Below, one piece after another: positions 26,532-53,170 of a DNA stretch of 64,000 bases. Position 1 is the first letter of the stretch, and the number at the start of each line of letters is the position of its first letter. The notes under the pieces are model-generated. The model was not told the DNA's origin. It did not search any database and was given only the letters and a program-made list of their open reading frames with translations. The position numbers were made by a program, and so were the translations under genes. The DNA comes from Halobacillus hunanensis (GTDB taxonomy: Bacteria; Bacillota; Bacilli; Bacillales; Halobacillaceae), in assembly GCF_900166655.1 (NCBI RefSeq), contig NZ_FVZB01000006.1:248001-312000 (forward strand), in the 5' to 3' direction.

Positions 26532-26570
26532 CCACCTCAGGTCATCCAATATTTGGATGACCTGAGGTGG
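26532..26570. repeat. 39-bp REP-like palindrome, copy 1
   Basis: Left arm CCACCTCAGGTCATCC, loop AATATTT, perfect right arm. First (leftmost) copy of the family. Lies between the tapA operator region and the terminator of the IDEAL-domain gene. Followed by AATCTTTTAG. Confidence 0.93.
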
Positions 26571-26593
26571 AATCTTTTAGGTATTTTTCCCAT

Positions 26594-26624
26594 TAAAAAA
26601 AGCGCTACATGGTGTAGCGCTTTC
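26594..26624 (-). terminator. Intrinsic terminator after the IDEAL-domain gene
   Basis: AAAGCGCTACA pairs with TGTAGCGCTTT around a 3-nt loop; on the minus strand TTTTAATGG follows. Lies 20 nt after the stop of the gene at 26643. Confidence 0.75.
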
Positions 26625-26642
26625 TCAAGCGTAGGTTATTTA

Positions 26643-27098
26643 TCAGCCGTATTCAGAATGCAAGGTTTTCGTTAAAGTTGTGAACGCATCTTGATCACGG
26701 AGATCCAGCGACTGATCAATTAAACGTTGGAGATTATTTTTCTCAAGTTCACCGATGATCGCTGCTATGTCTGTTTTTTCTTCAATTAGATTCTCAACAT
26801 CTTCTTTATAATAAGGTGCCGTTATCGAATGTAAATGAGTTAAAAAGTCAGGAAGCGCAATCAAATCCGCCACAGAGACATAAACAATACGTTTGCCCCG
26901 TTGAAAAACAAAAATATCAAACACATTATGAACACGCTTACGTTTTCGATCGATAATAATTTCACGCGACTCTTTTGGAATAAATTGATACAGTTCGTCA
27001 TCAATAAACAGGGAGAAATATTGGTAGGCTAAAACAACTCGTATAAACCGCTTATCTTCTTTAACGTAATATGGTTTTAACATTTTTACATTTAGCAT
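26643..27098 (-). CDS. IDEAL-domain protein
   Basis: 151-residue cytoplasmic protein. The C-terminal 35 residues fit an IDEAL domain (LQRLIDQSLDLRDQDAFTTL), a short helical domain found in Bacillaceae proteins such as YpiB and YozD. The N-terminal 85 residues look like a small beta domain (YYVKEDKRFIRVVLAYQYF, RKRVHNVFDIFVFQRGKRI) that I cannot name. In-frame GTG 27107 is possible, but AAGGGG precedes ATG 27098 at good distance. Single-gene unit with its own terminator. Cellular role unknown. Confidence 0.65.
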   Translation of the reverse strand: MLNVKMLKPYYVKEDKRFIRVVLAYQYFSLFIDDELYQFIPKESREIIIDRKRKRVHNVFDIFVFQRGKRIVYVSVADLIALPDFLTHLHSITAPYYKEDVENLIEEKTDIAAIIGELEKNNLQRLIDQSLDLRDQDAFTTLTKTLHSEYG

Positions 27099-27281
27099 AT
27101 CACCCACCCCTTTGTATCAGAATATTCAGTATTTTACTCTATTATCTCTCATTTTCTAAAAAATTGAAAGGATTTTGTGTAAACGGATTCATAAGTATTT
27201 GTGACGCGTTTATAATTTGTTTATTCCTCATTAGAAATTTTGTGAAACGGTTTTGTACAAATTTTTTAACAACGAGTAATT

Positions 27282-27491
27282 CTAATCATGAATGACGACT
27301 AACGAACGTAAATGGTTACGAACGGCTAAACCAATAAGGTATGGTGTACATTGATGTTCATCAGGATGTTTTACTTTAAATTTATGTATAGCCAATAACC
27401 CTTCCTCCATGAAATCATCCTTTTTACCTAGTAACCCCATATCCGAAATCGCCTGCAGAACAACAGCTTCGAAGACTTTCATGCTTGTCAT
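27282..27491 (-). CDS. Small protein with sigma-factor region-2-like motif (69 aa)
   Basis: The product contains DDFMEEGLLAIHKF and ends PYLIGLAVRNHLRSLVV, which together recall the core-binding part of sigma-70 region 2 (D-L-x-Q-E-G-x-L-G-L-x-K-A pattern), but it has no region 4 and is too short for a sigma factor. It might be a sigma cofactor such as RsoA, or something unrelated. AAAGGAG stands 9 nt before ATG 27491; the in-frame TTG at 27512 is not needed. It lies divergent to the threonine operon with 257 nt between. Confidence 0.5.
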   Translation of the reverse strand: MTSMKVFEAVVLQAISDMGLLGKKDDFMEEGLLAIHKFKVKHPDEHQCTPYLIGLAVRNHLRSLVVIHD

Positions 27492-27668
27492 TGTTCTTTT
27501 CTCCTTTATCAAATTAAATTTTAGGTATTTATGAATAGGTAATTATATTCATAAATTAATTATAATAATAAGTTAATTTTTAACAACTATTATCGTTCGC
27601 CTTTATTCTACAATTTCCGCAACAATTAAAATATCTGCTTTCTTTTTAGAAATTAAGACGTTTCTTCC

Positions 27669-27697
27669 TTGTTAAGATTCTCACTTTCCGTTACAAT
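27669..27697 (+). promoter_or_regulatory. Probable sigma-A promoter of hom-thrC-thrB
   Basis: TTGTTA (27669-27674), 17-nt spacer, TACAAT (27692-27697), about 50 nt before the hom start. I saw no threonine-rich leader peptide or T-box-like structure in the short leader. Confidence 0.5.
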
Positions 27698-30101: not shown

Positions 30102-31006
30102 ATAGCGTCACTATCCGAGTCCCAGCCACTTCGGCCAACCTTGGTCCTGGGTTCGATTCGATAGGAATGGCCCTTTCAAAATATGTCACTCTGGAGTGTC
30201 AGCCAGCTGAACAATGGTCTTTTTCTGTAGCAGAAAAAGATCAGCCTTATATTCCAAGTGATGAAAAGAACCTAATATATAAGACAACACTTTTTACAGC
30301 TTATCACTATGGAATCGAGGAATTGCCTCCTTATCATGTATCGATGGTAAATGATGTCCCTGTTGCACGTGGACTTGGCAGTTCTTCAACGGCGGTTGTT
30401 GCCGGGATCGAGCTTGCTAATGCCCTCCTTCATCTAGAGCTAAATAAGCAGGATAAGCTGAAAATCGCCTGCAAAATTGAAGGACATCCCGATAACGTAG
30501 CTCCAGCAATACTAGGCGGTGTGGTCATTTCAAGTTATACGGGTGAAGACCTCGATTACGTTCGCTTTACTAAAGGTCTGAAGGATCTCTCTTTTGTTAC
30601 GGTTATTCCAAGTTACCACGTGGAAACGGAGAAGGCTCGTTTGGTCCTGCCTGATGCGCTGAATTATAAGGCAGCAGTGTTGGCCAGTGGAACGGCAAAC
30701 GTATTGGTTGCTGCTTTAGCTGAGCAAGACTGGACTGTAGTGGGTAAAATGATGAAACGTGATCAGTGGCACCAGCCTTATCGCAGGGAGCTTATTCCGG
30801 ACTTCCCACTCGTATCGAAGACATTTGAAGAGAATGGATCCTACGGCAGTTATATTAGCGGGGCGGGGCCAACAATGATAGGCTTGTTTCCGAAGTTAAC
30901 CCCAGATCAACGCAAAGCATTAATTCATCAATTTCCCGAACATCATGTAGAGGTTTTAACAATAGATACAAAAGGTTTAGAAACGGCCGTACATGTGGAT
31001 CAGTGA
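30098..31006 (+). CDS. thrB: Homoserine kinase
   Basis: GHMP-family kinase that phosphorylates homoserine for ThrC. The 302-residue protein has [18 protein letters not shown] at the N-terminus, the ATP loop [16 protein letters not shown] (about residues 87-102), [13 protein letters not shown], and the C-terminal [12 protein letters not shown] motif. ATGA overlap with thrC. The stop codon lies within the left arm of a terminator, ending the operon. Confidence 0.95.
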
Positions 31007-31028
31007 TTTTTCACTGATCTTATTTTTT
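30998..31028 (+). terminator. Intrinsic terminator of the threonine operon
   Basis: GATCAGTGA (30998-31006) pairs with TCACTGATC (31011-31019), followed by TTATTTTTTG. The left arm contains the thrB stop codon. Confidence 0.8.
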
Positions 31029-31203
31029 GAAAGAATAACTTCTTTTTCTCAAAGTTGATAATTAGTTAAATTATAATTCATACCAATGAATGGATTTTTC
31101 TGAAAAATATTTGCTCATATGAAAAAAATTCGAGAAATTCTACTATAAAAATGGTGAATAATTGGATACAATAGAATTAGAGAATTCATAAAGGGGTTAG
31201 ACG

Positions 31204-31578
31204 ATGATGGCAAAAAAAAGTAAGCAATATGACTATGACTTAAAAGAAGTAAAACGACTAATTGAGGAGACCGATAAAAACTATCGGGAAATTTCTCAGG
31301 ATACCGGATGTCCTTACGCAAGTGTTGTGTATCATGGTCGAAAAATTCGCGGCCGAGTCAATCGAAGCAAACATGACATGATCACTGAATTACCACAGTC
31401 TACACTTTTTCCATCGGAAGAAAAGATCCAGGAGCCAATGCCGTTATTCGATGGCACTACTTTAAACATCTCGAGAAACAATATTCCCATTCATGATGCT
31501 GAACAAGAAGCAGCCAGGATGATTAAAGCGGCCAGAGCTCTCGGATTGAGCAAAATTAACATAACGATCGAGAAATAA
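31204..31578 (+). CDS. Hypothetical protein with possible N-terminal HTH (124 aa)
   Basis: Basic, soluble 124-residue protein. Residues about 12-50 (YDLKEVKRLIEETDKNYREI, then TGCPYASVVYHGRKIRGR) have the shape of a short helix-turn-helix; the C-terminal part (HDAEQEAARMIKAARALGLS) is a helix followed by a short strand. I do not recognise the family. AAAGGGG precedes the tandem ATG codons at 31204/31207. It is a single-gene unit with a strong terminator and palindrome copy 2 behind it. Confidence 0.6.
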   Translation: MMAKKSKQYDYDLKEVKRLIEETDKNYREISQDTGCPYASVVYHGRKIRGRVNRSKHDMITELPQSTLFPSEEKIQEPMPLFDGTTLNISRNNIPIHDAEQEAARMIKAARALGLSKINITIEK

Positions 31579-31601
31579 ACATAACCAATACCCCTAAACT
31601 G

Positions 31602-31643
31602 AGCATCCCCCATTTTTTCTAAAAAATAGGGGATGCTTTTTGT
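31602..31643 (+). terminator. Intrinsic terminator with long AT-rich loop
   Basis: AGCATCCCC (31602-31610) pairs with GGGGATGCT (31629-31637), extended inside by ATTTTTT/AAAAAAT, followed by TTTTTGTTTTG. Confidence 0.8.
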
Positions 31644-31667
31644 TTTGTCTCCGTCTTCCATATTTCC

Positions 31668-31706
31668 CCACCTCAGGTCATCCAAATAATGGATGACCTG
31701 AGGTGG
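31668..31706. repeat. 39-bp REP-like palindrome, copy 2
   Basis: Perfect 16-bp arms with loop AAATAAT. Base pairing extends outward to CCCC/GGGG (31666-31708), and a T6 run follows on the right. Downstream of the 124-aa gene and its own terminator. Same loop as copy 3. Confidence 0.93.
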
Positions 31707-31828
31707 GGATTTTTTGTAAATATAGCAGCAGATAGGATAATACATGCTTTTGATGGGCATAGCTTTTCTAGTAAAACACTGATCCTCTATGTTATTTTTA
31801 TATAGTGAAAAGAAAGGAAGATCGCATC

Positions 31829-31993
31829 ATGTTTTATTTATTATTCGCTGCCTTTTTCGTCATTTACTTAATAGCAGGTTATGTTACACCACTCGAGCTT
31901 TCTACGTTTACAGTTGTACTATCTGTTGCGCTTATTTGTTCAAATCTATATATGTTTTTCAAAAGCCGCAAAGAAGAAAAAGAAAACAAATAG
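31829..31993 (+). CDS. Small two-TM membrane protein (54 aa)
   Basis: The product consists of two hydrophobic segments (residues 2-20 and 25-46) and a Lys/Glu-rich C-terminal tail (KSRKEEKENK). AAAGGAAG stands 9 nt before ATG 31829, so this start is preferred to in-frame GTG 31805. Single gene between palindrome copies 2 and 3. Function unknown; small proteins of this shape are common in Bacillaceae. Confidence 0.55.
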   Translation: MFYLLFAAFFVIYLIAGYVTPLELSTFTVVLSVALICSNLYMFFKSRKEEKENK

Positions 31994-32010
31994 TAATTTC
32001 CAGTTTATTC

Positions 32011-32049
32011 CCACCTCAGGTCATCCAAATAATGGATGACCTGAGGTGG
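32011..32049. repeat. 39-bp REP-like palindrome, copy 3
   Basis: Perfect arms, loop AAATAAT, pairing extends to ATTCC/GGAAT-like flanks and a T4 run follows. Sits exactly between the convergent 54-aa gene and the AEC carrier gene (14 nt before its stop), replacing a conventional terminator. Confidence 0.93.
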
Positions 32050-32062
32050 AAATTTTCTGCCA

Positions 32063-32959
32063 CTACGTTAGGATATTTAATACAATGGGAATCGTAATGA
32101 TACTCAAAATCGTAGTAACCAGGGTGATACTGGATACGAGATCCGGCTTTGAGTCAAACTGAACGGCATACATTGTCGTTGTTGCGGCAGATGGCATCGC
32201 TGCTGAAATAATTAAGACATTAGCCATTAAATCACTCATTGGCAACAGAACCGTTAACCCCCAGGCAATAAGAGGTGATCCCACCAATCTCAGGGTAGCG
32301 GCATAAGAAATTCTGCCCCACTCTAGATGTTTCACGGTAATATTGGCAAGCTGCATTCCCAAAAGAATCATTACTGTTGGGATGGTAGCGTCCCCGACTA
32401 TAGAAACACTCGACATCAAATTCTCCGGGATCGAAACAGAGGAAAGTTTCATAATTAGTGCTGCAACTACCGCATAAGTTGGTGGCATTTTTAGTACTGT
32501 TGAAATGGCCAATCGTACGCCTGCTGAGCCTTTTGCTGCGTAATATACGCCAAAGAAGTTCATGACAATCTGCTGCAGTACCATGAAGGACACGGAATAC
32601 ACAAATCCCGCTTCCCCAAATGCAAATAACACGATCGGCGCCCCATAATTACCTGCATTCATAAACGCTGTAGAGAGGATCATGCCACTTTCCACCGAAG
32701 AATCAAGTTTCATAACTTTAGCTGTAACTTTATTGATCAATAGAATAAGAAAAAGTAATAGAATCGAAAAGAACAGCATCATTAAATATTCACTATTAAA
32801 TTCAGCCTGATAGAACGTTTCAAAGACAAGACACGGTAGCATTATGTACAGGGTTACCGTAGAAAGTGATTTAATTTCAAGGCGCAGGAACTTCTGCAAA
32901 ACGAACCCAGCTATAAAGACAATGATGACAGGAAGAACGACTTGGAAGAATATCGTCAT
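32063..32959 (-). CDS. AEC-family transporter (auxin efflux carrier type)
   Basis: 298-residue membrane protein with about ten segments in the two-halves layout of the AEC family, with the typical asparagine-containing STAFMNAGNYGAPIVLFAFG (about residues 97-116) and C-terminal ISAAMPSAATTTMYA. Bacterial members move malate, malonate or other organic acids; the substrate here is not evident. ATG 32959 follows a GGAGG-type site. Its promoter region shares the 200-nt gap with the RAYT gene and palindrome copy 4. Confidence 0.8.
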   Translation of the reverse strand: MTIFFQVVLPVIIVFIAGFVLQKFLRLEIKSLSTVTLYIMLPCLVFETFYQAEFNSEYLMMLFFSILLLFLILLINKVTAKVMKLDSSVESGMILSTAFMNAGNYGAPIVLFAFGEAGFVYSVSFMVLQQIVMNFFGVYYAAKGSAGVRLAISTVLKMPPTYAVVAALIMKLSSVSIPENLMSSVSIVGDATIPTVMILLGMQLANITVKHLEWGRISYAATLRLVGSPLIAWGLTVLLPMSDLMANVLIISAAMPSAATTTMYAVQFDSKPDLVSSITLVTTILSIITIPIVLNILT

Positions 32960-33029
32960 AGAGCTAAGCCTCCAATAATAATTTTAACTTTATAAGTTTA
33001 TCAAAAATGAAGTCATCATACATAATATG

Positions 33030-33068
33030 CCACCTCAGGTCATCCAGAAACTGGATGACCTGAGGTGG
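33030..33068. repeat. 39-bp REP-like palindrome, copy 4 (5' flank of RAYT)
   Basis: Perfect arms with loop AGAAACT; pairing extends outward through TATGCC/GGCATA (33026-33072). About 93 nt upstream of the RAYT start codon in a divergent promoter region. Confidence 0.93.
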
Positions 33069-33161
33069 CATATTTATCCTTTTTCTAATTATGCAGGATT
33101 TTCAGGATAAAAGTCGAATAGTAACTAAGTGTTTATGTACTAATTTAGAGAGGATGTTGTT

Positions 33162-33713
33162 ATGGCTAACCCGAAACGAATATGGTTTCCTCATGCCAGC
33201 TATCACATTACGGCGCGCGGAAATCGAAAAGCAGATATTTTCTATGATTATCACGATCGCTATTATTATCTTGAACTTCTTGCCCAGAACAAACAAAGCT
33301 ACCCCTTCCACCTCCATGCCTATTGCCTCATGACTAACCACGTACATTTGCTCATCGAAACGGTCGACCACCCTCCCGGTATCTTCATGAAAGAACTTCA
33401 TTCCAATTATGCCATGTATTTTAATAAGAAATATGACTATGCGGGCCACCTTTTTCAAGGACCATACAAGGCGGATCTCCAGGATGATGTGCAAGTCAGC
33501 CGCTATATTCATTTAAACCCCTGCCGCGCCAACCTTACTCACTCTCCTGAAGACTATCGTTGGAACAGTTACCCACACTACATGTCAACAAATTCACCCA
33601 ACACACTTGTGACAACCTCAAAACTACTTTCTTACTTCAAGAATCCAGCAGAATACGACTGGTTTGTTAAATTACCATTAAAAACCACCTCAGGTCATCC
33701 AGAAATTGGATGA
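33162..33713 (+). CDS. REP-associated tyrosine transposase (RAYT, IS200-like Y1 family)
   Basis: 183-residue single-strand transposase of the Y1/HUH group. It has the HUH metal motif in MTNHVHLLIE (residues about 57-66), the N-terminal HASYHITARGNRK strand, and the DVQVSRYIHLNPCRANL helix (about 113-129) with the expected catalytic Tyr. RAYTs mobilise or maintain short palindromic REP repeats. The gene is bounded by palindrome copies 4 and 5, and copy 5 encodes its last nine codons and TGA stop. No inverted-repeat IS ends or second ORF (TnpB) are seen, so it is a domesticated-type RAYT, not a free IS200. GAGAGGATG precedes ATG 33162. Confidence 0.9.
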   Translation: MANPKRIWFPHASYHITARGNRKADIFYDYHDRYYYLELLAQNKQSYPFHLHAYCLMTNHVHLLIETVDHPPGIFMKELHSNYAMYFNKKYDYAGHLFQGPYKADLQDDVQVSRYIHLNPCRANLTHSPEDYRWNSYPHYMSTNSPNTLVTTSKLLSYFKNPAEYDWFVKLPLKTTSGHPEIG

Positions 33714-33723
33714 CCTGAGGTGG
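33685..33723. repeat. 39-bp REP-like palindrome, copy 5 (3' end of RAYT)
   Basis: Perfect arms with loop AGAAATT. The left arm and loop are read through as the RAYT C-terminus TTSGHPEIG and TGA. Only copy of the family that overlaps a coding sequence. It lies between the convergent RAYT and symporter genes. Confidence 0.95.
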
Positions 33724-33743
33724 TAAAATTCTTCTAAAAATCT

Positions 33744-35396
33744 CTATTCTTTAAGCCAAACTTCTCCATTTTTGTATTGTACTTGTTCTGGATAGCGTAA
33801 GTCTGTGACTTCATCTTGAGTTTCCTGTGACGGCGGTTTAGTAGCCAGTGAGACGACTATATTCGTAATGATGGCTGCAGTAGCTCCAAATACTCCAGCG
33901 CCTGTGTCGATGATTCCCAAAATCGTAAACCCTCCGTACTTAGCAGCGAATATATAGCCTAGCGTAACGGTTAAACCAACGATCATTCCAGCAACAACCC
34001 CCGGACCATTCGCACGTTTCCACCATACTCCAAGGAATAAAGCCGGGAAAAAGGATCCCGAAGCTAAGGCAAATGCCCAGGCCACAATTTGTGTAATCGC
34101 ACCTGGTGGATTTAACGCAAGTAGGCCTGCACAAACGGTCGCCAGAATAATGGACCATCTTCCTACTGCGAGGCGTTTCTTTTCACTGGCATTAGGATTA
34201 ATGGATCTGAAATAGATATCGTGGGACAACGCAGCTGATATCGCAATCATAAGTCCGCCAGCGGTCGATAATGCAGCAGCCATGGCACCTGCAGCCATTA
34301 ATCCTACAACAAATATACCTAAGTTTGCAATTTCAGGTGTAGCCATAACCACAATGTCGTTACTGATCATGATCTCTGTCCATTGTAAAATTCCATCACC
34401 ATTGTTATCAGCTAATGATAGCTCACCCGTATTAATCCATGGCTGAGTCCAGGCTGGCAGATTGCTCAATGAGGAACCCGCCACTTCAGTCATTAGGATG
34501 AATCGGGAAAAGGCAGCATAGGCTGGTGCAGATAAATAAAGAAGGCCGATAAAGAGAAGCGCCCAGGCCCCGCTCCAACGTGCAGCTTTCATAGTAGCAA
34601 CGGTGTAAAACCGGACAATAACATGAGGCAGCCCTGCAGTGCCGGCCATTAAAGTAAACATTAACGCTAGAAACTGCCATTTTGTTGCCCCTGTAAAAGG
34701 AACAATATATTCAGTAATCCCAAGTTGTTGATCAAGGATCTGCAGTTCCTCGATAATTTGACCGTAAGATAACCAGGGAGCCGGATTCTGAGTCAATTGC
34801 AATGACATGAAAATTACCGGGATTAAATAGGCAACGATTAAGACAAGATATTGAGCTACTTGTGTCCAGGTGATCCCTTTCATACCACCCATAGCCGAAT
34901 AAAAAGCAATCAGCACGACCCCAATTAAAGTACCTGTAGCTGTGTTCACTTCGAGCAAGCGTCCAATAACAACCCCTGATCCAGATAACTGGCCGACAGA
35001 ATACGTAAAACTGATTATAATCGTAGCGATCGCAGCAATGATTCGTGCTGTATTACTACGATAACGATCCCCAATAAACTCCGGGACCGTGTAACGCCCG
35101 TATTTTCGAAGCTGAGGGGCCAACAAGAAGGTTAAGAGTAAGTAACCGCCTGTCCAGCCCATTATATAGGCAAGTCCATCATAACCGAGAGCCATTACAG
35201 TACCGGCCATTCCAATAAATGAGGCCGCACTCATCCAATCTGCGCCGATAGCCATCCCGTTAAATACAGGTGGAACGCCGCGACCAGCAACATAGAAGTC
35301 CGACGTGGCGCGTGCTTTGTTAAAAACCGCAATACCGATGTATAAAGAAAAGGTCGCGATTATGAGGATGAGAGATACAATAAACTGTCCATCCAC
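33744..35396 (-). CDS. Sodium:solute symporter, VC_2705-like subfamily
   Basis: 550-residue symporter with about 13 membrane segments and family motifs (GADWMSAASFIGMAG near residue 52, GGMKGITWTQVAQYLVL, FALASGSFFPALFLGVWW). It is related to acetate permease ActP; the partner DUF4212 gene places it in the VC_2705 type, whose substrate is probably a short carboxylate. An outside loop near residue 330 carries DNNGDGILQWTE, a complete EF-hand-like calcium loop. Start is GTG 35396 with GGAGGGG upstream. Third gene of a three-gene operon with a cre site. Confidence 0.85.
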   Translation of the reverse strand: MDGQFIVSLILIIATFSLYIGIAVFNKARATSDFYVAGRGVPPVFNGMAIGADWMSAASFIGMAGTVMALGYDGLAYIMGWTGGYLLLTFLLAPQLRKYGRYTVPEFIGDRYRSNTARIIAAIATIIISFTYSVGQLSGSGVVIGRLLEVNTATGTLIGVVLIAFYSAMGGMKGITWTQVAQYLVLIVAYLIPVIFMSLQLTQNPAPWLSYGQIIEELQILDQQLGITEYIVPFTGATKWQFLALMFTLMAGTAGLPHVIVRFYTVATMKAARWSGAWALLFIGLLYLSAPAYAAFSRFILMTEVAGSSLSNLPAWTQPWINTGELSLADNNGDGILQWTEIMISNDIVVMATPEIANLGIFVVGLMAAGAMAAALSTAGGLMIAISAALSHDIYFRSINPNASEKKRLAVGRWSIILATVCAGLLALNPPGAITQIVAWAFALASGSFFPALFLGVWWKRANGPGVVAGMIVGLTVTLGYIFAAKYGGFTILGIIDTGAGVFGATAAIITNIVVSLATKPPSQETQDEVTDLRYPEQVQYKNGEVWLKE

Positions 35397-35411
35397 AATA
35401 TTTCCCCTCCA

Positions 35412-35708
35412 TTAATGATCTTCTGTGTGTGTGTTTGTATCCACAAACTCAGGATCAAAGCCAAATTTTTTATCGATCTTGTCGCTCATAACCGCATTAA
35501 CAAAAAGCAAAATGATGAAAGTTAAGACCGCCCCCTGCGATCCCATATAATAATGGAAAGGAATACCTAGAACCGTTATGGATGATAGGTCTCGTGCAAA
35601 AAATACAATAACATAAGATGCTAAAAAGCCTATCGCTAAATAAATACAAATCATAGTTGTCCGATATTTAAAATAAGCCTCTGCTTTAGCTGGATCCATT
35701 TTTTTCAT
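35412..35708 (-). CDS. DUF4212 small subunit of sodium:solute symporter
   Basis: 98-residue protein with two membrane segments (about residues 18-40 and 55-80; YFKYRTTMICIYLAIGF, MGSQGAVLTFIILLF). DUF4212 proteins are encoded next to VC_2705-type symporters and are regarded as a small subunit. GGAGG stands 8 nt before ATG 35708, preferred to in-frame GTG 35717. Followed 15 nt later by the symporter gene. Confidence 0.82.
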   Translation of the reverse strand: MKKMDPAKAEAYFKYRTTMICIYLAIGFLASYVIVFFARDLSSITVLGIPFHYYMGSQGAVLTFIILLFVNAVMSDKIDKKFGFDPEFVDTNTHTEDH

Positions 35709-35741
35709 CTCTCCCACCTCCCTTCAACCGAATAAAGAATT

Positions 35742-35927: not shown

Positions 35928-35947
35928 GGCTAGTCCCTCCCCAAAAT

Positions 35948-36105: not shown

Positions 36106-36144
36106 CCACCTCAGGTCACCCAAAATATGGGTGACCTGAGGTGG
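36106..36144. repeat. 39-bp REP-like palindrome, copy 6 (variant arms)
   Basis: Arms read CCACCTCAGGTCACCC and GGGTGACCTGAGGTGG, loop AAAATAT: both arms carry the same A-to-G/T-to-C change, so pairing is kept. Pairing extends outward through CCAAAAAGCC/GGCTTTTTGG (36096-36154), making a terminator-like stem with T5. Lies between murQ and the symporter operon. Confidence 0.93.
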
Positions 36145-39104: not shown

Positions 39105-39143
39105 CCACCTCAGGTCATCCAAAATTTGGATGACCTGAGGTGG
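39105..39143. repeat. 39-bp REP-like palindrome, copy 7
   Basis: Perfect arms with loop AAAATTT. An A7 run on the left (T7 on the minus strand) makes it a terminator-like hairpin for the convergent nuclease gene, whose stop is 14 nt to the right. Confidence 0.93.
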
Positions 39144-42268: not shown

Positions 42269-42434
42269 TTCATTCCTCCTAAATAAGTTATAAAAATCTA
42301 TCAATCTTTCCCAAGTATAAAAGATAATCCTCCCCCATATTGACCTTTTTTCTGTAAAAATTACAAATTGCGCCAAAAGACACAACACAAGACGTCTGAC
42401 CACTAGAACCATCCAGCCTATTTATATCCATTAT

Positions 42435-42452
42435 CTGGATGACCTGAGGTGG
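42435..42452. repeat. Partial REP-like palindrome, copy 8 (right arm only)
   Basis: CTGGATGACCTGAGGTGG, an intact right arm with two loop bases. The left arm is nearly lost; only an ATCCAG (42411-42416) remains about 18 nt to the left. Lies in the 312-nt gap between the divergent nuclease and DsbA-like genes, where I see no other gene. Confidence 0.8.
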
Positions 42453-43322: not shown

Positions 43323-43361
43323 CCACCTCAGGTCATCCAGAATCTGGATGACCTGAGGTGG
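43323..43361. repeat. 39-bp REP-like palindrome, copy 9
   Basis: Perfect arms with loop AGAATCT, pairing extended by AATTCC-like/GGAAATT flanks, and T6 on the right. Exactly between the convergent DsbA-like and thioesterase genes, 13 nt from each stop. Loop shared with copies 11 and 12. Confidence 0.93.
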
Positions 43362-43848: not shown

Positions 43849-43914
43849 TACTTTCCACCCTCTCAAGTTAGCTCTTACGCTGTTTTCTTCCAAAAAGACA
43901 ACTCAAAACGCAAT

Positions 43915-43940: not shown

Positions 43941-44035
43941 GGTTTTATCATGAGCAGTTATAAGGGATCAGCAAGAAAAAATAGATACCTCATCACGTAA
44001 CACCCTCCTATCTCCCGTAGGATTAACATGTTCTT

Positions 44036-44198: not shown

Positions 44199-44237
44199 CC
44201 TATTAAATTTTGTTTGAGGATAATTGTCCTCCTCTTC

Positions 44238-44266
44238 ACTATCGTCGAGAACCAGTCAGTTGTCAA
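44238..44266 (-). promoter_or_regulatory. Promoter of the riboswitch transcript
   Basis: On the minus strand TTGACA (44266-44261), 17-nt spacer, GATAGT (44243-44238). Perfect -35; transcription would start around 44231, about 33 nt before the aptamer. Confidence 0.6.
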
Positions 44267-44413
44267 TAAGAATGGATCAACATTAAAATATTTACACTAA
44301 AACACTTGAGTCACTGAACTATTTATTTTAACTTTTTGTTCTACAAAAAAATCAGACGTATATAATAAATTGCTGACTTTGACTTCATTGATTTATCAGA
44401 AAGGAGTCTGTGA

Positions 44414-45931: not shown

Positions 45932-45936
45932 AGAGA

Positions 45937-45974
45937 AACATTCCCCTTCCTTTTAAAGCAGGAAGGGGGATGTT
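45937..45974. terminator. Bidirectional intrinsic terminator
   Basis: AACATTCCCCTTCC (45937-45950) pairs with GGAAGGGGGATGTT (45961-45974). It lies between the convergent lipase-like gene and the 126-aa gene and touches the stop codon of the latter. Confidence 0.65.
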
Positions 45975-46353
45975 ACCTTGTTCGAATCCATTTTGCTATT
46001 ATTTTTATGAAAAAGTAAACAACACAAAAGGCTAAAAATCCAAGTACGCTTATGGCGGCATCATTAAATTCCATAGCTCCTCTACCTGTAATCTTCTGCT
46101 GAATTTCTACAGCCAGCACAAAAACGAGAATCATAGAGAGTGTAAACAAAAATGAAATAATCGTAATACTCCATCTAGCAATCATATGAAATAGTACATC
46201 TACAAAAATCAATCCTATGATCCCCAGTATTCCGATAATCCAGAAATGAAGCTCCTTATCAGTCAGATTCCATCCAGATGATTGGGAGACTTCTAACAAC
46301 AGATCATGGAATACATTAACAATTTCAGCTAAAAACACAATCACTTCTTTCAT
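45973..46353 (-). CDS. Uncharacterised membrane protein (126 aa)
   Basis: Three or four hydrophobic segments (about residues 38-58, 62-84, 97-118) after a polar N-terminus (SSGWNLTDKELHFW). No family recognised. The start region has an AGGAAG-like site. Its upstream gap holds palindrome copy 10 and the promoter of the divergent LCP gene. Confidence 0.6.
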   Translation of the reverse strand: MKEVIVFLAEIVNVFHDLLLEVSQSSGWNLTDKELHFWIIGILGIIGLIFVDVLFHMIARWSITIISFLFTLSMILVFVLAVEIQQKITGRGAMEFNDAAISVLGFLAFCVVYFFIKIIAKWIRTR

Positions 46354-46408
46354 CTTCTTCCCCCTACTTCCTGTCCAATTTCATAGTAGCACACCAAATC
46401 GCTCCGCC

Positions 46409-46447
46409 CCACCTCAGGTCAACCAATATTTGGATGACCTGAGGTGG
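46409..46447. repeat. 39-bp REP-like palindrome, copy 10 (one mismatch)
   Basis: Left arm has AACC where the family has ATCC, so one pair is broken; loop AATATTT as in copy 1. T6 follows on the right. One of the few copies in a divergent gene gap (126-aa gene and LCP gene). Confidence 0.92.
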
Positions 46448-46548
46448 AGCTTTTTTCCAAATTATTCATCATTACTTTTACAAGATTCACCATTACAAGT
46501 ATAATAGATAATTAGTTCGATGCTATTCTACATAATTGAGGTGGAGTT

Positions 46549-47481
46549 ATGGGACGAAAAGAAATCAAGAAAAGGAAGAGGAAAAAGGGGCGCTGGTGGA
46601 AAGTCGTCCTGCTCATTGTAGTGCTCCTGCTCATTGGAGGAGGCGTTTATGCATTTACGGTTTTCAATAACGTCAAACAAACAGTTAACAGCCAACTTCA
46701 CGAAAATGTACCTTCCATAGATACAGAATTAACGGATAAAAAAGTTGACAATAAAGAGCCTATCAATATCCTTTTGCTAGGTGTAGATGAGCGTGAAAAT
46801 GATCAGGGACGTTCAGATACAATGATTGTCATGACCCTTGATCCAGCTAATAATCAAATGCAACTGGTCAGTATTCCCCGCGATACTAAAGTGAAAATTG
46901 CAGGTGATGGGCGTGTAACCCGAATCAATCATGCTTATGCTTATGGTGGAAGTGATATGTCTGTTAAGACCGTTGAAAACTTCCTTGATATTCATATTGA
47001 TTATTATGTAACGATGAATATGGAAGGGCTGGCACAGTTGGTCAATGCTGTGGATGGAATCACTGTTAATAATGATATGGCCTTTACCCAAGATGGCTTC
47101 CATTTTCCAAAAGGTCAATTACATCTCTCGGGCGAAGAAGCCCTTGCCTATGTGCGTATGCGTAAAGAAGATCCTAAAGGGGACCTTGGACGTAATCAAC
47201 GTCAGCGTCAAGTGATTCAAGGTGTCATAGATAAAGCTGCCGGATTAAATATGATCAATCAAATTGATGAAGTGATGGAAGTATTAGGGAACAATATGAA
47301 AACAAATATGGAATTTGGGGATATGCGACGGCTCGCCATGAATTATAGCAGTGCGCGTAAAAACATCTCTACTTACCAAATGTCCGGGAATCCTATAACT
47401 AGTTCTGGGATGTATTTAATAGAGATGCCGCCATCAGAAATTCAAAAAACGCATGACTTGATTGTTAATTTTGGTTCTTAG
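46549..47481 (+). CDS. LytR-CpsA-Psr (LCP) family cell-wall polymer ligase, copy 1
   Basis: 310-residue membrane-anchored protein: a very basic N-terminus (residues 1-15), one membrane segment (about 16-38) and an extracellular LCP domain. Conserved residues are visible in RSDTMIVMTLDP, VSIPRDTKVKI, INHAYAYGG and DLGRNQRQRQVIQ. LCP proteins (TagT/U/V in B. subtilis) move teichoic acids or capsules from undecaprenyl pyrophosphate to peptidoglycan, completing the pathway coded in the left half of the window. Closely similar to the LCP gene at 54165-55091. GAGGTGGAG precedes ATG 46549. Confidence 0.9.
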   Translation: MGRKEIKKRKRKKGRWWKVVLLIVVLLLIGGGVYAFTVFNNVKQTVNSQLHENVPSIDTELTDKKVDNKEPINILLLGVDERENDQGRSDTMIVMTLDPANNQMQLVSIPRDTKVKIAGDGRVTRINHAYAYGGSDMSVKTVENFLDIHIDYYVTMNMEGLAQLVNAVDGITVNNDMAFTQDGFHFPKGQLHLSGEEALAYVRMRKEDPKGDLGRNQRQRQVIQGVIDKAAGLNMINQIDEVMEVLGNNMKTNMEFGDMRRLAMNYSSARKNISTYQMSGNPITSSGMYLIEMPPSEIQKTHDLIVNFGS

Positions 47482-47517
47482 AATAAACCGTCTTGCAGGA
47501 AGACGGTTTATTCTTTT
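47481..47517 (+). terminator. Intrinsic terminator after LCP copy 1
   Basis: GAATAAACCGTCTT (47481-47494) pairs perfectly with AAGACGGTTTATTC (47500-47513), followed by TTTT. Confidence 0.85.
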
Positions 47518-47538
47518 GCCTGAATATGTTAATTTCAC

Positions 47539-47577
47539 CCACCTCAGGTCATCCAGAATCTGGATGGCCTGAGGTGG
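47539..47577. repeat. 39-bp REP-like palindrome, copy 11 (one mismatch)
   Basis: Right arm has GGATGGCC in place of GGATGACC (G:T pair); loop AGAATCT. Pairing extends outward through AATTTCACCC/GGGCGAAATT with one mismatch. Between the convergent LCP and formamidase genes; the LCP gene already has a separate terminator. Confidence 0.92.
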
Positions 47578-47609
47578 GCGAAATTGGTTAAAATCCTCTG
47601 AAGGCTATT

Positions 47610-48518
47610 TTATTTCCTAAATAACTTCAGTCCATATCCATCCAATATCTTTCTTGGCACAAAAAAACGTGCGGTCTTTAATGGATCAACGATTTGGCTT
47701 ATTTGAACTTCTCCAGCTGCACTCATGAGCATCGTAAACTCAGCAAGGGTTAGATCGGTTTGTGGCTGCAGTAGATCAATCATTTTTTCCACCGCAAGAT
47801 CAGCAGCCTCATCTAAAGATTCTCTAGAAACAAGTGATGCTGCCCCCGCTTTATTCTCAATATAAGGATAATCAATTGAGTATCCCTTAATCACATCTAA
47901 TGTCACCGTCACTTTCGCTGAAATCTCAACTCCTGACACACATACCTCGCCATCCCCCATGGCCGCATGTACATCTCCTAATGAAAAAAGTCCACCTTCT
48001 TGAAAAATTGGGAAATACAACGTTGCACCGGTTGTTATAAGCTTAGTATCCATATTTCCCCCATGAGCTCCCGGCGTCCCACATGAAACAGCTTCGTTCT
48101 CTGGAGCAACTCCAATCACGCCAATCATCGGTTGTAAAGACAGTTTAATTCTGTTATCAAACACTAATTCGTTTTCTTTTATTTCAATCATTTTTATTTT
48201 AAATTCATCTATTCGATGCCCCATGACACCAAGTTTCGGACCTGTTGCCATCACACCTCGTTCACCAAGCTCAATCCCATCTATTCTTACTTGCAAAATA
48301 TCACCTGTCTGGGCACCTTCCACGTATACTGGTCCCGTAGCCGGGTTAATGCGCTCCCAGTCAATGCTCGAAAATGTTTCTTCCTCCGACTGAATTTGAT
48401 TTTCAAAGCAATCATACGTATCCATAACTACTTGCTCACCGGCACGAACCTTCAAAGCTGGTTTGTTCTCCTTACTCATCGCGTACACAAAAGAATCTTT
48501 CTCTAACTTCTGAACCAT
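47610..48518 (-). CDS. Acetamidase/formamidase family protein
   Basis: 302-residue amidase of the FmdA_AmdA family, hydrolysing formamide or acetamide to ammonia and the acid. Features: FVYAMSKENKPALKVRAGEQVVMDTYD at the N-terminus (quoted in part: MSKENKPALKVRAGEQV), GPVYVEGAQTGDILQV, GVIGVAPENEAVSCGTPGAHGGNMD region with the conserved Gly-rich GTPGAHGGNMD, and GDVHAAMGDGEV. The ORF is open to TTG 48608, but GGAGAGG stands 9 nt before ATG 48518 and gives the usual family start. The EamA exporter gene lies 99 nt upstream on the same strand. Confidence 0.85.
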   Translation of the reverse strand: MVQKLEKDSFVYAMSKENKPALKVRAGEQVVMDTYDCFENQIQSEEETFSSIDWERINPATGPVYVEGAQTGDILQVRIDGIELGERGVMATGPKLGVMGHRIDEFKIKMIEIKENELVFDNRIKLSLQPMIGVIGVAPENEAVSCGTPGAHGGNMDTKLITTGATLYFPIFQEGGLFSLGDVHAAMGDGEVCVSGVEISAKVTVTLDVIKGYSIDYPYIENKAGAASLVSRESLDEAADLAVEKMIDLLQPQTDLTLAEFTMLMSAAGEVQISQIVDPLKTARFFVPRKILDGYGLKLFRK

Positions 48519-48617
48519 ATCCTTCATCCTCTCCATGTTATTACCATCCATTTTAACAGAATAATCAGACAATCCGTCATGGAACAGCCCCAACACCAAT
48601 CGATCCAAGGAGCTGTT

Positions 48618-49523
48618 TTATGTTGACCTCTTCAAATTGAGTCTTTTATTCAATCCCCTGCTGTTATTTAAGAAAATTGCAGCAATGATTAGGACTACAC
48701 CGCCCCATTGTAAGGCAGTAACGGATTCAGAGAGTATTAAGCTTGCTGAGATGAGCGCTACAGGAAGTTCAATCGCACTAAGTACGTTAGCCAATCCATC
48801 TGACAGCATCGGAGCTCCAATTGCAAAGAACAATGGTGGAATCACAGCACCAAACAAGGCTACTCCTCCCCCTACAATCCACAATCTCACATCTCCAGCC
48901 GGTAAGGTAGGGATATCTTTTACAAAGGTAAGGGTAACTAAGATCAGCGAACCAGTCACCATAATCGGACTCCGAGCCCAGGGATCAACATCCACAGCGA
49001 TTTGCCCGCTAAAAAATATGAATCCTGCATAAGTAAATGCTGATAACATACCAAATATCAAGCCTATGGCAGGCAGTTCTACTATACCCGTGATTAGAAT
49101 ATTAGAAGCGAAAAACACACCAATCAAAGTGATTGCCATCGAACAAATGGCCAGCACAGTCGGCTTTCTGCGATTAAACACCCACTCAAAAAAGAACCCC
49201 ATCCATACAAATTGAAATAACAAAATAATAGCTAAGGATGCAGACAGATAATGGATAGCTCCATAATAAAAAATACTCGTTAACCCTACGAAACTGCCCG
49301 TAGCCATTATTTTAAGGACTCTCTTTCTAGTTAAACGGCTCAGCTTTACTCGTAAAAGAAACGCTATCCCCCAAAGAGTTATGAAAGCAATAATCATTTG
49401 AATAATATTTATTTCTCCAAGTGTATATCCATTACTGAACCCCAATTTCACAAAGACAGGAGTGAACCCGAAGCTTCCCGCCCCTGCCAACACAAATAAC
49501 ATCCCTTTATTCCTAGACACCAC
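48618..49523 (-). CDS. EamA/DMT-family transporter
   Basis: 301-residue membrane protein with ten segments arranged as two EamA repeats (GSFGFTPVFVKLGF early; LSAIELPVALISASLILSES late). Exports or imports small metabolites; the substrate is unknown. Starts at GTG 49523, or the next codon GTG 49520, with GGAGAGGG upstream. May share a transcript with the formamidase gene downstream. Confidence 0.85.
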   Translation of the reverse strand: MVSRNKGMLFVLAGAGSFGFTPVFVKLGFSNGYTLGEINIIQMIIAFITLWGIAFLLRVKLSRLTRKRVLKIMATGSFVGLTSIFYYGAIHYLSASLAIILLFQFVWMGFFFEWVFNRRKPTVLAICSMAITLIGVFFASNILITGIVELPAIGLIFGMLSAFTYAGFIFFSGQIAVDVDPWARSPIMVTGSLILVTLTFVKDIPTLPAGDVRLWIVGGGVALFGAVIPPLFFAIGAPMLSDGLANVLSAIELPVALISASLILSESVTALQWGGVVLIIAAIFLNNSRGLNKRLNLKRST

Positions 49524-49588
49524 TACTCACACCCTCTCCATTACGTCCCCATTCTATCATAAAGCACTTGATTCCATGTAAAAATAAC

Positions 49589-49627
49589 CCACCTCAGGTC
49601 ATCCAGAATCTGGATGACCTGAGGTGG
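49589..49627. repeat. 39-bp REP-like palindrome, copy 12
   Basis: Perfect arms with loop AGAATCT and T5 on the right. In the 312-nt divergent gap between the EamA and formaldehyde dehydrogenase genes. Otherwise this gap holds AT-rich promoter sequence and AGGAGGAG before the next start. Confidence 0.93.
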
Positions 49628-49835
49628 ATATTTTTCTCAGTTATGTTTAAGGTACTCCTTTTATAGGGTATGAAAAAGTTAAATCTAACAAAGCGTTTCT
49701 TTTTAGACATACAGTTTCCGATCCCATATTAATGCTCGTTAACCACTCTGCAAATAAAGATGAAGTTGTCTCATAAAGGGGAAGTAGAATGTCGTTCTGT
49801 CCATAAGCCATACATTTTAGGAGGAGGCATATATA

Positions 49836-51050
49836 ATGGCCACAAATAATCGTGCAGTAGCCTATAACGGTGAAGGAAGCGTAGTCGTAAAGGATATTGA
49901 TTTTCCAGAATTAGTGTTAAGAGATGGTCCTGGGGTCAATCCAGCTAATGTTGGACGCAAATGTGAGCATGGTGTGATTTTGAAAGTCGTATCTACAAAC
50001 ATTTGCGGCAGCGACCAGCACATGGTTCGTGGACGCACTACAGCACCAGAAGGATTAGTTCTTGGTCATGAAATCACCGGCGAAGTTATTGAAACGGGAC
50101 GAGACGTTGAATTTGTACACAAAGGTGATCTTGTTTCCGTCCCATTTAATATTGCCTGCGGACGCTGTGTTAACTGTATTGAAGGAAAAACACATATCTG
50201 TCTTAATGTAAATCCGGATCGTCCCGGTTCCGCTTACGGGTATGTCGACATGGGAGGCTGGGTCGGCGGGCAAGCCGAATACGTTATGGTTCCCTATGCG
50301 GATTTCCAAGTGTTGAAATTTCCTGACAAAGACCAGGCGATGGAAAAAATGCTTGACCTGACCATGCTCTCTGATATTTTCCCAACTGGATTTCATGGGG
50401 TGTATTCAGCAGGTGTTCAAATAGGCTCTACAGTATATATTGCGGGTGCCGGCCCAGTTGGATTAGCAGCTGCTCACTCTGCCCAGCTGCTAGGTGCATC
50501 AGTCGTGATCGTTGGCGATTTAATTGAGGAACGGCTTGAACAGGCACGCAGTTTTGGCTGTGAAACCATCAATATTAGTGAGCATGATAATATTTCTGAA
50601 CAAATAGAACAAATCTTAGGCGTGCCTGAAGTCGACGCTGCAGTGGACTGTGTTGGATTTGAAGCACATGGACATAGTCACGAGGAAGCACCTGCCGTAG
50701 TCTTGAATTCCATTATGGAAGCGACAAAAGCAGGCGGCGGTCTTGGAATCCCCGGTCTTTATGTCACAGAAGATCCGGGAGCTTCAGATGAGGATGCCCG
50801 TCAAGGTGCCTTAAAACTCAATTTTGGCTTAGGGTGGGCAAAAGCTCAATCCTTTGTAACCGGACAAACCCCTGTCATGCGTTATCACAGAGGTTTGATG
50901 CAAGCTATCCTTAACGATAAAGCTGACATTGCAAAAGCTGTTAATGCAACGGTTATAGGACTGGAAGACGCTCCGAAAGGATACAGTGAATTCGACAGTG
51001 GTGTCCCTAGAAAATTTGTCCTCGACCCACACGGATCACTAGAGAACTAA
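49836..51050 (+). CDS. fdhA: Glutathione-independent formaldehyde dehydrogenase (zinc ADH family)
   Basis: 404-residue zinc-dependent medium-chain dehydrogenase that oxidises formaldehyde to formate with NAD. It shows the catalytic-zinc site NICGSDQHMVRG and GHEITGEVIE, the structural-zinc cysteines in CGRCVNCIEGKTHIC, the Rossmann motif GAGPVGLAAAHSAQLLGA, and the PDH-like insertion CVGFEAHGHSHEE typical of FdhA and formaldehyde dismutase. AGGAGGAG precedes ATG 49836. Single gene with its own terminator; likely for aldehyde detoxification. Confidence 0.9.
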   Translation: MATNNRAVAYNGEGSVVVKDIDFPELVLRDGPGVNPANVGRKCEHGVILKVVSTNICGSDQHMVRGRTTAPEGLVLGHEITGEVIETGRDVEFVHKGDLVSVPFNIACGRCVNCIEGKTHICLNVNPDRPGSAYGYVDMGGWVGGQAEYVMVPYADFQVLKFPDKDQAMEKMLDLTMLSDIFPTGFHGVYSAGVQIGSTVYIAGAGPVGLAAAHSAQLLGASVVIVGDLIEERLEQARSFGCETINISEHDNISEQIEQILGVPEVDAAVDCVGFEAHGHSHEEAPAVVLNSIMEATKAGGGLGIPGLYVTEDPGASDEDARQGALKLNFGLGWAKAQSFVTGQTPVMRYHRGLMQAILNDKADIAKAVNATVIGLEDAPKGYSEFDSGVPRKFVLDPHGSLEN

Positions 51051-51053
51051 CCA

Positions 51054-51090
51054 AAAAATCCCTCGCCCATATCTGGCGAGGGATTTTTCC
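51054..51090 (+). terminator. Intrinsic terminator after fdhA
   Basis: AAAAATCCCTCGCC (51054-51067) pairs with GGCGAGGGATTTTT (51075-51088). Strong, usable from both sides. Confidence 0.85.
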
Positions 51091-51099
51091 ACATTTCTT

Positions 51100-51111
51100 C
51101 CACCTCAGGTC
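51100..51111. repeat. Partial REP-like palindrome, copy 13 (left arm fragment)
   Basis: CCACCTCAGGTC, the first 12 bases of the family left arm, ends abruptly 7 nt before the stop codon of the SEC-C gene. The rest of the element is absent, as if removed by a deletion reaching the gene end. Confidence 0.7.
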
Positions 51112-51117
51112 TTACAT

Positions 51118-53037
51118 TCATTTCCATTTCAAAATCGGGTTCAGTTGTTCGAGGTGCGGCTCCCATAAGTGTCCATTGCGATGTACATAAATGACCGCTT
51201 CCTCAAATGAACCGCGACTAAATAATTCGGGAAGTTCTTCTGGCATCGATTCCTTCCCAGTAAGCAATCCCCCTATAAACTCATTATTGTCATGAGCTAG
51301 TTGGAGTTGAGATCTTATATCCTTTCCATCCATTTTCAACATAATCATTAGCAGGGCAATGGTCATCGTCTGCTCTAAAGAATCATTCTCAGGATAAGAA
51401 TCTAACAATTTCTGAACATCAAGATACCTTTCCTCCCCTACATAAAGAGGGATTAATCGCGAACGAATTCCTTGATTGTCCTGTGGATTCAACTCAAGAA
51501 GTTCCTCATACCACTCAATCACCTTACCGATTTCTTCTTTTTCCTCATACAATTCTGCTAAAAACTCAATAGCCCTCAACAGAGGACGGGCCTCAATAAC
51601 TTGCCACAGACTAACATCCTCATCAGTATCAAGGCGATTATAACCAGAATGAACAGCCTCTATCACAGATATGAGTTTTTCTGTCTCATCATTTGTAAAG
51701 CGCGCCCTGAGTACAAGTCCATCCACACTGTTTTTATCAAGTGACAACACTTCATCTACTAATCTTCTTTTCTCTTCATCATTCCTAGTTTCATAGGCTT
51801 CGTACGCCTTTACCTGTGCAAGTTCTCTGTCATTTGCCGGAACAAACGGATCATTCCTATGGTAGTTCATATATTCATTAATCTCATCAATAGAATGGAA
51901 GCTCATTTGTTCAATCTTTTTATTCAATTCGTACGTATGTCTCTCAACACTTATTTGAGCACTTGGCTTTACATAGAAATTCATTTCCGGATCCTCGCTA
52001 TGGTCCTCATAATTCCGGATTAGTTTATAAAAAATTTCTATTAACTCTTTATACCGTCTAGACAGACTGTTTGAACTGATTCTATATTTTTTGGCTACTT
52101 GTTTCTGAGTAACTATTTGATCTCCACCAAAATAAGGGACCTCATAGAAGAAATATTCAAGTGCTGCAGCAAATACAGCAGGCTTCCTGATTATCGGATC
52201 TTGTTCCTCACAATACCTCAGCCACAACCCTTTTAATGTGACATAGGCTTCAAGCTGTTGATCCGAATAGTCTACATGTTCGTCTAGAACCTCGAATACT
52301 TCAAGCTGCTTTTCGGATAACTCAGAGCTTTCTTCAAACGAATCTGCCGGTTCCATGTAAAGCCACTTAGGGAAGGACCTTAGAAAATTGTGATGCAGGT
52401 AATCACTGAGCTCACCAGCCCTTGATTGATTATTGAATTCCGCTTGTAATTCAGAAATGAAATAGTCACAGCCTGCTTTAGTATTTGGCAGTGCAAGAGG
52501 AATAAAATTATAAAAGTTCCCCCAATTCATTAAAATACCCATGTAATAAGGGAAGTGCGGTAGGTCTTCATTATCCAATGGGATCCGATCTCTTCCTACC
52601 TTAAATTGACCATCTTTTAGTACATCTTCAACATATACAAACTCATCGGAATCTTCTTCTAAAAGACGAAAGATACTCGTATGTGAAGAACCCCAAGTCT
52701 TAAGAGCCTTTGTTGTGGCAGGCCGGATCATTGATTTCTGCTTTTGTTTAAAAAAGTGTTGAAAGACAGTTTCTCCATCAGTCTGTGGTACAAATAGACC
52801 TTTATAAAGAAGACGAACAAAATGTTCTATCTCTTCTTCTTGAGACGAAGCCTTTGTGGAGGGGAATAAATGAGGGTAATGGTCGTACATGTAATCCTGA
52901 AATTGAAGCAAATACCGGTCCAATTCCTCTTCAACTTTTTTTGAAGGGAATTCGATTACATTCGTCTTACCGTGGCATTTTTTATATTTCTTTCCACTTC
53001 CGCAAGGGCACGGATCATTTCTACCAACCTTCTCCAT
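51118..53037 (-). CDS. SEC-C zinc-motif and TPR-containing protein
   Basis: 639-residue cytoplasmic protein. Residues 5-22 form a SEC-C zinc motif ([19 protein letters not shown]), as at the C-terminus of SecA but here at the N-terminus. The middle (about 90-400) is helical and unrecognised; a short HTH-like part ([20 protein letters not shown], about 310-330) is present. The last 200 residues look like TPR repeats ([20 protein letters not shown]). The combination suggests a scaffold or regulatory adaptor, but no function can be assigned. GGAGAGTTGA-like site before ATG 53037. Confidence 0.7.
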
Positions 53038-53131
53038 ATCAACTCTCCTTTCCTACTATACTCTCCCATCTATTATAAAGGTTTTTCAGAACTAAAGAAA
53101 AACAATAAAATCCATACATTTACAAATAATC

Positions 53132-53170
53132 CCACCTTAGGTCATCCAAATACTGGATGACCTGAGGTGG
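53132..53170. repeat. 39-bp REP-like palindrome, copy 14 (one mismatch)
   Basis: Left arm CCACCTTAGGTCATCC has T for C (G:T pair); loop AAATACT. Rightmost copy of the family. Between the SEC-C gene and the dehydrogenase gene, both on the minus strand, so just 3' of the dehydrogenase stop. Confidence 0.92.

Follow-up and report, generated by a model that had tools for sequence, protein, structure and literature searches.

Does a family of short palindromes in Halobacillus hunanensis belong to the single transposase gene lying among its copies, and if so, what keeps the palindromes alike? We addressed this question for a stretch of 64,000 nucleotides (contig NZ_FVZB01000006.1, positions 248,001 to 312,000; hereafter the window), which holds the family, termed palindrome A, and a gene for a Y1/HUH protein of the type of REP-associated tyrosine transposases (RAYT; REP, repetitive extragenic palindrome). 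Comparison across genomes strongly supports a specific pairing of the palindrome with the RAYT version. We consider it probable that the two form a RAYT/REP-like pair, in which a domesticated, single-copy Y1/HUH nuclease-ligase recognises a hairpin in single-stranded DNA (17-bp stem, free 5-nt loop) and so fixes the stem at about 50 sites.

The palindrome family and its pairing with the RAYT version

A search of the window for the 16-nt arm, allowing up to 3 mismatches, returned 26 matches, whereas 100 dinucleotide shuffles used as controls gave 0.25 expected matches and a maximum of 2. The matches build 12 complete and 2 half copies, exactly as the original prediction had stated. Its description of the unit as a 39-bp palindrome with a 7-nt loop was right as to the palindrome but not as to its dimensions: the symmetric arm comprises 17 nt (CCACCTCAGGTCATCCA), the AT-rich loop 5 nt, and the repeat exceeds 39 bp, as the flanks lengthen the palindrome copy by copy. 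The whole 3.98-Mb genome contains 53 copies (up to 3 arm mismatches), 47 of them exact, and the same search with the reversed pattern as a control found none. Within the window, the copies are single units spaced 343–5136 nt apart; judged by eye from the list of open reading frames, their placement is mostly intergenic, the neighbouring genes being convergent at 6 of the 14 copies, divergent at 4 and tandem at 4, and one copy overlaps the RAYT gene. The gene is flanked by a dispersed repeat family that is specific to this RAYT.

Within the genus, palindrome A was present in 4 of 11 genomes (52–64 copies each), whose RAYTs are 84–100% identical to the window protein P0001; the remaining seven carry RAYTs near 50% identity, one of them broken, and zero copies. 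Extension to the family revealed palindrome A in 10 of 44 genomes (442 copies in total; none in the other 34), comprising all nine genomes with a RAYT of at least 70% identity and 1 of the 35 others, the threshold applying to rounded values (G021 reaches 69.0% in the trimmed tree alignment). Among 397 genomes of the order, taken evenly from a larger group, palindrome A occurred only in G000, G016 and G021, though 234 of them contain a RAYT homologue. The proposal that repeat and RAYT belong together was therefore upheld, and across family and order copies were not equally common in genomes without this RAYT.

A second palindrome, B (GTAAGACCTGGTCAYCCA, with a 5-nt loop at its centre), was found in eight family genomes with RAYTs of 65–68% identity (51 copies in total), none of which holds palindrome A, so that A and B were never encountered together in one genome. 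Nine loop-proximal bases are common to both palindromes (position 4 being T or C), while most of the outer stem differs. In G043 (RAYT 61%), another palindrome nearby also displays CCA-N5-TGG at the loop.

More distant RAYT genes are accompanied by palindromes as well. Next to RAYTs near 50% identity in four genomes (L022, L023, L024 and L025, near positions 1272–1331), we observed a palindrome ATAACCG...CGGTTAT approximately 170–230 nt upstream, and other RAYTs of the order (L232, L234, L235, L243–L246) have upstream palindromes with GGGGTCAGGC or close variants, which fit or resemble the motif GGGGWSAS described by Di Nocera for TIRs.

The switch between palindromes A and B

For the RAYT tree, 28 loci were tried and 27 proteins obtained (G002 was not extracted), with more distant RAYTs as the outgroup. 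The eight B RAYTs formed one clade (0.992), joined next by the A RAYT of G021 (0.990) and then by that of G028 (A, 0.740), which places the B clade inside A and suggests that A preceded B. As the RAYT of G021 (A) is 80% identical to that of G018 (B) and 69% to that of G000 (A), palindrome identity does not track overall RAYT identity. Outside the palindrome-coded tail, ten substitution positions are fixed differently between nine A and eight B RAYTs, including Y47/H, A53/S, Y54/F and H or T70/I or L (P0001 numbering, one residue below that of the tree alignment), together with a two-residue difference at the N-terminus. The gene clusters next to the RAYT gene recur in A and B genomes, on the opposite side of the gene in six of the eight B genomes.

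An A orthologue with both flanks matching was identified for 2 of 23 B site groups, while none was found for the other 21 in the incomplete DNA fetched. The first shared site is the RAYT 3' end (7 B genomes in the group) and the second is G021_L300_1015 (4 B genomes); both carry A in G021 and B in the others. One flank of the second site also resembles that of window copy 9. G021 itself contains two stem subfamilies, with 20 copies reading CCTCAGG, 12 reading CCTCAAG and none mixed. This subdivision and the very existence of the family suggest that the RAYT formerly spread the copies.

The RAYT protein and its gene

P0001 is encoded by a single-copy gene and matches Pfam Y1_Tnp (E = 7.8e-12); at E 0.001, no further Pfam domain was found in it, and a helix-turn-helix-like C-terminal extension went undetected. 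It scored 57.3 bits against the NCBIfam model REP_Tyr_transpos, under the cut-off of 80, and 15.1 bits against transpos_IS200 (cut-off 55); the several near-identical transposase copies expected of IS200/IS605 were not found, as the genome holds one copy only. The dN/dS ratio (non-synonymous to synonymous substitution) ranged from 0.01 to 0.07 in 8 of 11 pairs, those with finite dS, and the RAYT is under purifying selection. Structure prediction gave a mean pLDDT (predicted local distance difference test) of 46.5 and was not used, and a sequence search of solved structures returned no meaningful match to the RAYT. On plasmids, 20 records of RAYT homologues were found, all below 60% identity (42% best among the matches listed), one distant match of 36% came from a named genome collection, and viral contigs contained neither palindrome A nor relatives of the RAYT.

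A Y1/HUH transposase of RAYT type had been predicted between copies 4 and 5, and there it lies; copy 5, however, does more than bound the gene, as it overlaps its last codons. Its left arm encodes the C-terminus TTSGHP. The stop codon falls in the right arm, or in the loop in those genomes whose loop spells TAA (G006, G013, G016, G017); a flip of the loop would therefore alter the last residues of the protein. The cognate palindrome overlaps the RAYT stop in all nine A and all eight B loci.

Inheritance and change at orthologous sites

Of the copies collected, 33 of 51 in G006 have a partner in G001 and 25 of 32 in G016 have one in G013, indicating that most copies are inherited at fixed sites. 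Among the 14 window sites, five hold a copy in all four genomes compared, and at the other nine copies are shared, damaged or missing along with larger changes of the flanks. The site of copy 4 is also occupied in G005, G006, G001 and, judged from the flanks, G013. The decayed copy at 42414..42452 has full palindromes at its orthologous site in G006 and G001, and the half copy CCACCTCAGGT (51100–51115), which is without the other arm, is kept in place in four species (including G005, G006 and G001). In G005 (L028–L030), the arm duplications at the sites orthologous to 26532 and 46409 look as if they arose from slippage at a hairpin.

Orthologous copies were paired through 450-nt flanks, and a pair was dropped if either of its copies had more than 2 mismatches in the arms (one each for G013/G016, G016/G017, G013/G017, G000/G006 and G000/G001, none for G006/G001; G005 comparisons uncounted). 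In the pairs kept, arms differed by 0.17–1.18% and flanks by 9–22%, and RAYT synonymous sites differed by 23–76% in the six genome pairs computed. Loops compared directly differed by 26–51%, yet once inversion was allowed, loops that were the same or inverted exceeded the number in shuffles for G013/G016 (9 of 24 vs 3.1, p = 0.001), G016/G017 (10 of 17 vs 2.8, 0 of 2000 shuffles), G006/G001 (11 of 33 vs 2.4, 0 of 2000) and G013/G017 (5 of 13 vs 2.3, p = 0.049). Over these four comparisons, in which genomes are partly in common, 20 loops were inverted and 15 the same. Of 35 control palindromes found outside the family, one was in reality a variant family copy and nine had an orthologous loop fit for comparison (1 identical, 6 closer in direct and 1 in inverted orientation, 1 tie, 0 exactly inverted), too few for a comparison of flipping rates.

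Arm changes were surveyed in 282 copies from nine genomes, of which 7 were excluded for having more than 4 mismatches. Arms were exact in 244 of the 275 copies used and changed in 31. The changed positions comprised 22 one-sided and 14 mirrored ones, against 0.04 mirrored expected; 11 of the mirrored changes affect the outermost two arm positions, and 4 are one site counted in four genomes. Mirroring of arms together with inversion of the spacer has been described as the signature of template switching between the arms of inverted repeats (PMC8604942; PMC8794818), and the flipped loops and mirrored arms observed here are as this process predicts, which points to it as their probable origin. 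Template switching keeps the arms alike but leaves the fixed sequence of the inner stem unexplained; we infer recognition by the RAYT.

Two other explanations of the loop data were considered. That copies are mainly replaced by one another is ruled out for close pairs, as loops are site-specific once inversion is allowed. Loop hypermutation is unneeded: inversion-allowed loops differ by 18%, a figure biased downward by taking the smaller of two readings, compared with 23% (G013/G016) and 34% (G006/G001) at RAYT synonymous sites.

The flanks do not supply an obvious orientation. In five genomes, 75–91% of sides have a T at +8, to the left and to the right of the palindrome alike, and GG, GT or xCC, xAC often come next. 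A division into an oriented head and tail by these motifs was rejected, as types I and II on the two sides were nearly independent (119 of 273 copies mixed, about 100 expected by a hand calculation).

Proposed mechanism and competing explanations

The best reading of these data is a RAYT/REP-like pair of the TIRYT type (similar to subclass 2.1) whose palindromes are symmetric and have no GTAG. The hairpin would arise where DNA is single-stranded, the likeliest place being the lagging-strand template, and the RAYT may bind it there; the constant stem would be the outcome of this binding, while template switching at the hairpin during replication would account for the flipped loops and mirrored arms. 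A bolder version, which we regard as unlikely, holds that the RAYT is past transposing and itself processes hairpins at the replication fork, flipping loops, mirroring arms and pulling copies, that of its own gene included, towards the stem its specificity demands, so that a change of the protein rewrote the palindromes of the genome.

Several observations weigh against the pair as proposed. GTAG or GTGG at the foot of the hairpin was seen on 0 of 546 sides (273 copies; 7.7 expected), in line with the predicted absence of a GTAG-type head, and among the window copies no inverted doublets (REPIN/BIME) at fixed spacing were found. No clean empty site was detected at the nine window sites aligned, in a comparison with one genome per species in which several combinations of genome and site had flanks too divergent for alignment. 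The sample consists of few, related genomes with a single A/B switch, and the tenth A genome, G030 (1000 contigs, 6% contamination), yielded no RAYT. P0001 is without 4 residues that close relatives have directly before QVSRY (ahead of Y115), so its activity is uncertain and the window's own RAYT might be impaired. The arm divergences given above are biased low, as copies were found by near-identity and damaged ones were under-sampled; in a 60-kb stretch searched to 8 mismatches (12 sites), arms differed at 32 of 408 positions between G000 and G005 (7.8%, a figure raised by two copies with indels) and at 7 of 408 between G006 and G001. Finally, the loop signal was weak or absent in five more distant comparisons (p = 0.0445, 0.0885, 0.017, 0.159 and 0.46).

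Two genomes were also considered as natural losses. In G030, 7 of 28 copies had unmirrored inner changes compared with 21 of 286 in six RAYT-bearing genomes (Fisher p = 0.0067; counted by eye, with some listings incomplete and mismatch criteria differing between genomes); given the poor assembly, RAYT loss in G030 is a lead only. For G005, 8 of 13 copies are damaged in one comparison, yet 41 of the 50 listed copies are exact (52 in all at up to 3 mismatches), and we make no claim of a loss of function.

If the palindromes instead served a host function, as bidirectional terminators or as binding sites of another protein, their link to the RAYT would reflect common ancestry in the same clades. 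Inheritance at common sites agrees with this idea, as do the convergent gene pairs that enclose 6 of the 14 copies in the window (judged by eye), the T-rich flanks of 37 of 51 G000 copies (four or five T among the five positions +4 to +8, on at least one side) and the terminator-like character of several copies on both strands in the stretch scanned (31000–50500). The T tract, however, begins at +4 and not directly at the stem, 4 of the 14 copies lie between divergent genes, and terminators preserve base pairing rather than one fixed 17-nt sequence. The identity of the palindrome, too, changes between A and B in step with the RAYT subclades, inside the RAYT gene as well. We regard a host function as an improbable explanation of the family. 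Still less probable, in our view, are ordinary mobile repeats that the RAYT actively copies to new sites, with arms uniform because the copies are young. A family of about 50 copies would suit such mobility, the unmixed subfamilies of G021 suggest some spread within the genome, and the 21 of 23 B site groups without an A orthologue, in the incomplete DNA fetched, point the same way. Yet arms are uniform also at orthologous sites whose flanks diverge by 9–22%, so those copies are old; loops retain a memory of their site in close pairs, contrary to recent wholesale replacement; and the nine window sites gave zero clean empty sites.

Feature coordinates and other contents of the window

Table 1 Palindrome copies and RAYT gene features, in window positions
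Feature	Position	Strand	Remarks
Palindrome copy 1	26532..26570		Loop ATATT; G005 orthologue with short duplication inside one arm
Palindrome copy 2	31668..31706		Loop AATAA; absent from G005 along with ~110 nt around it
Palindrome copy 3	32011..32049		Loop AATAA; orthologues in G005 (3 changes), G006 and G001
Palindrome copy 4	33030..33068		Upstream of RAYT gene; loop GAAAC; stem extension AATATG/CATATT
RAYT-type Y1/HUH transposase gene (P0001)	33162..33713	+	183 aa; between copies 4 and 5
HUH motif codons H60 V61 H62	33339..33347	+	Both H invariant in 12-protein alignment
Presumed catalytic tyrosine codon, Y115 (SRYIHLNP)	33504..33506	+	Invariant in 12-protein alignment
Palindrome copy 5	33685..33723		Overlaps RAYT gene 3' end; stop codon within palindrome
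Palindrome copy 6	36106..36144		Same mirrored change on both arms
Palindrome copy 7	39105..39143		Loop AAATT
Decayed copy (half palindrome)	42414..42452		Right arm 42437–42452 intact (- strand match)
Palindrome copy 8	43323..43361		Loop GAATC
Palindrome copy 9	46409..46447		1 one-sided change; G005 orthologue with short duplication inside one arm
Palindrome copy 10	47539..47577		1 one-sided change
Palindrome copy 11	49589..49627		Loop GAATC
Half copy, left arm	51100..51115	+	2 changes; CCACCTCAGGT
Palindrome copy 12	53132..53170		1 one-sided change

The window further contains a cobalamin riboswitch (44025–44210, - strand; 119 bits, gathering score 31.5) and a gene for a 1084-aa protein (39158–42412, - strand) with lamin-tail, chitobiase C-terminal-like and endonuclease/exonuclease/phosphatase domains. 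Several diverged direct-repeat families with spacings near 390 and 800 nt at 346–3743 probably belong to a repeat-rich protein, and two open reading frames on opposite strands (46549–47481 and 54165–55091; 310 and 308 aa) with long stretches of 72–77% DNA identity are likely paralogues.

Comparison with known systems

The original prediction saw in this locus the REP signature known from Gammaproteobacteria, a view that did not hold for the enzyme: the P0001 motifs NHVH, FQ and YIHLNP match TnpA-Y1 subclass 2.1, for which NHVH, W[EQ] or FQ, and YIELNP or Y[IV]HLNP are given (PMC6006769, Table 1). This subclass corresponds to the TIRYTs, or TIRtrons, of Di Nocera 2013 (PMC3733652) and, in the same Table 1 of Quentin 2018 (PMC6006769), to group 1 of Bertels; by its motifs, P0001 is closest to these proteins. 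TIRYT genes are described as flanked by GTAG-less inverted repeats that sometimes overlap the gene (3'ov), and TIR families as moderately abundant at times, with some self-complementary members (S. maltophilia 1152) (PMC3733652), and the family around the RAYT gene here shares these traits. P0001 departs from subclass 2.1 in its length (183 aa vs a median of 238) and in the undetected C-terminal helix-turn-helix. The palindromes are likewise unlike those of TIRYTs: by inspection, the A and B arms are without GGGGWSAS, a motif reported for some TIRs and not all (PMC3733652), and the units are perfect palindromes with a free 5-nt loop. In its account of subclass 2.1, Quentin 2018 (PMC6006769) reports no REP-like sequences near the genes.

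With the gammaproteobacterial RAYT/REP systems (REPtron, REPINs; PMC2817692, PMC3116915, PMC8266576), the present pair shares a single-copy, domesticated Y1/HUH protein and dispersed intergenic palindromes, and one REP group is described as having perfect palindromes too (PMC8266576). Unlike these systems, it has no GTAG guide, no inverted doublets in the window and a symmetric unit without clear strand polarity, and it involves a different RAYT subclass and probably a different phylum. With guide and window doublets absent, the family does not belong to the canonical REPs. Among the open-access papers listed in our searches, none dealt with a RAYT and a palindrome family of its own in Bacillota; RayT-annotated genes as such have been reported in Geobacillus (PMC9693769). 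Coevolution of RAYT and REP, with a specific palindrome for each RAYT, has already been described in Stenotrophomonas (PMC2817692); the novelty lies in this particular pair, in its form and in the A/B switch. These touch on the way in which RAYTs select their palindromes and on the long persistence of REP families, and two palindrome families whose RAYTs are as little as 20% apart, without a GTAG guide, offer a natural system for the recognition code.

Finally, the homogenisation of arms and the in-place inversion of the spacer resemble template switching at inverted repeats as described in PMC8604942 and PMC8794818. Those cases concern general mutation at unrelated inverted repeats, whereas here one family with a constant stem is involved, whose flipping loop records template switching in place at some 50 sites in each genome.

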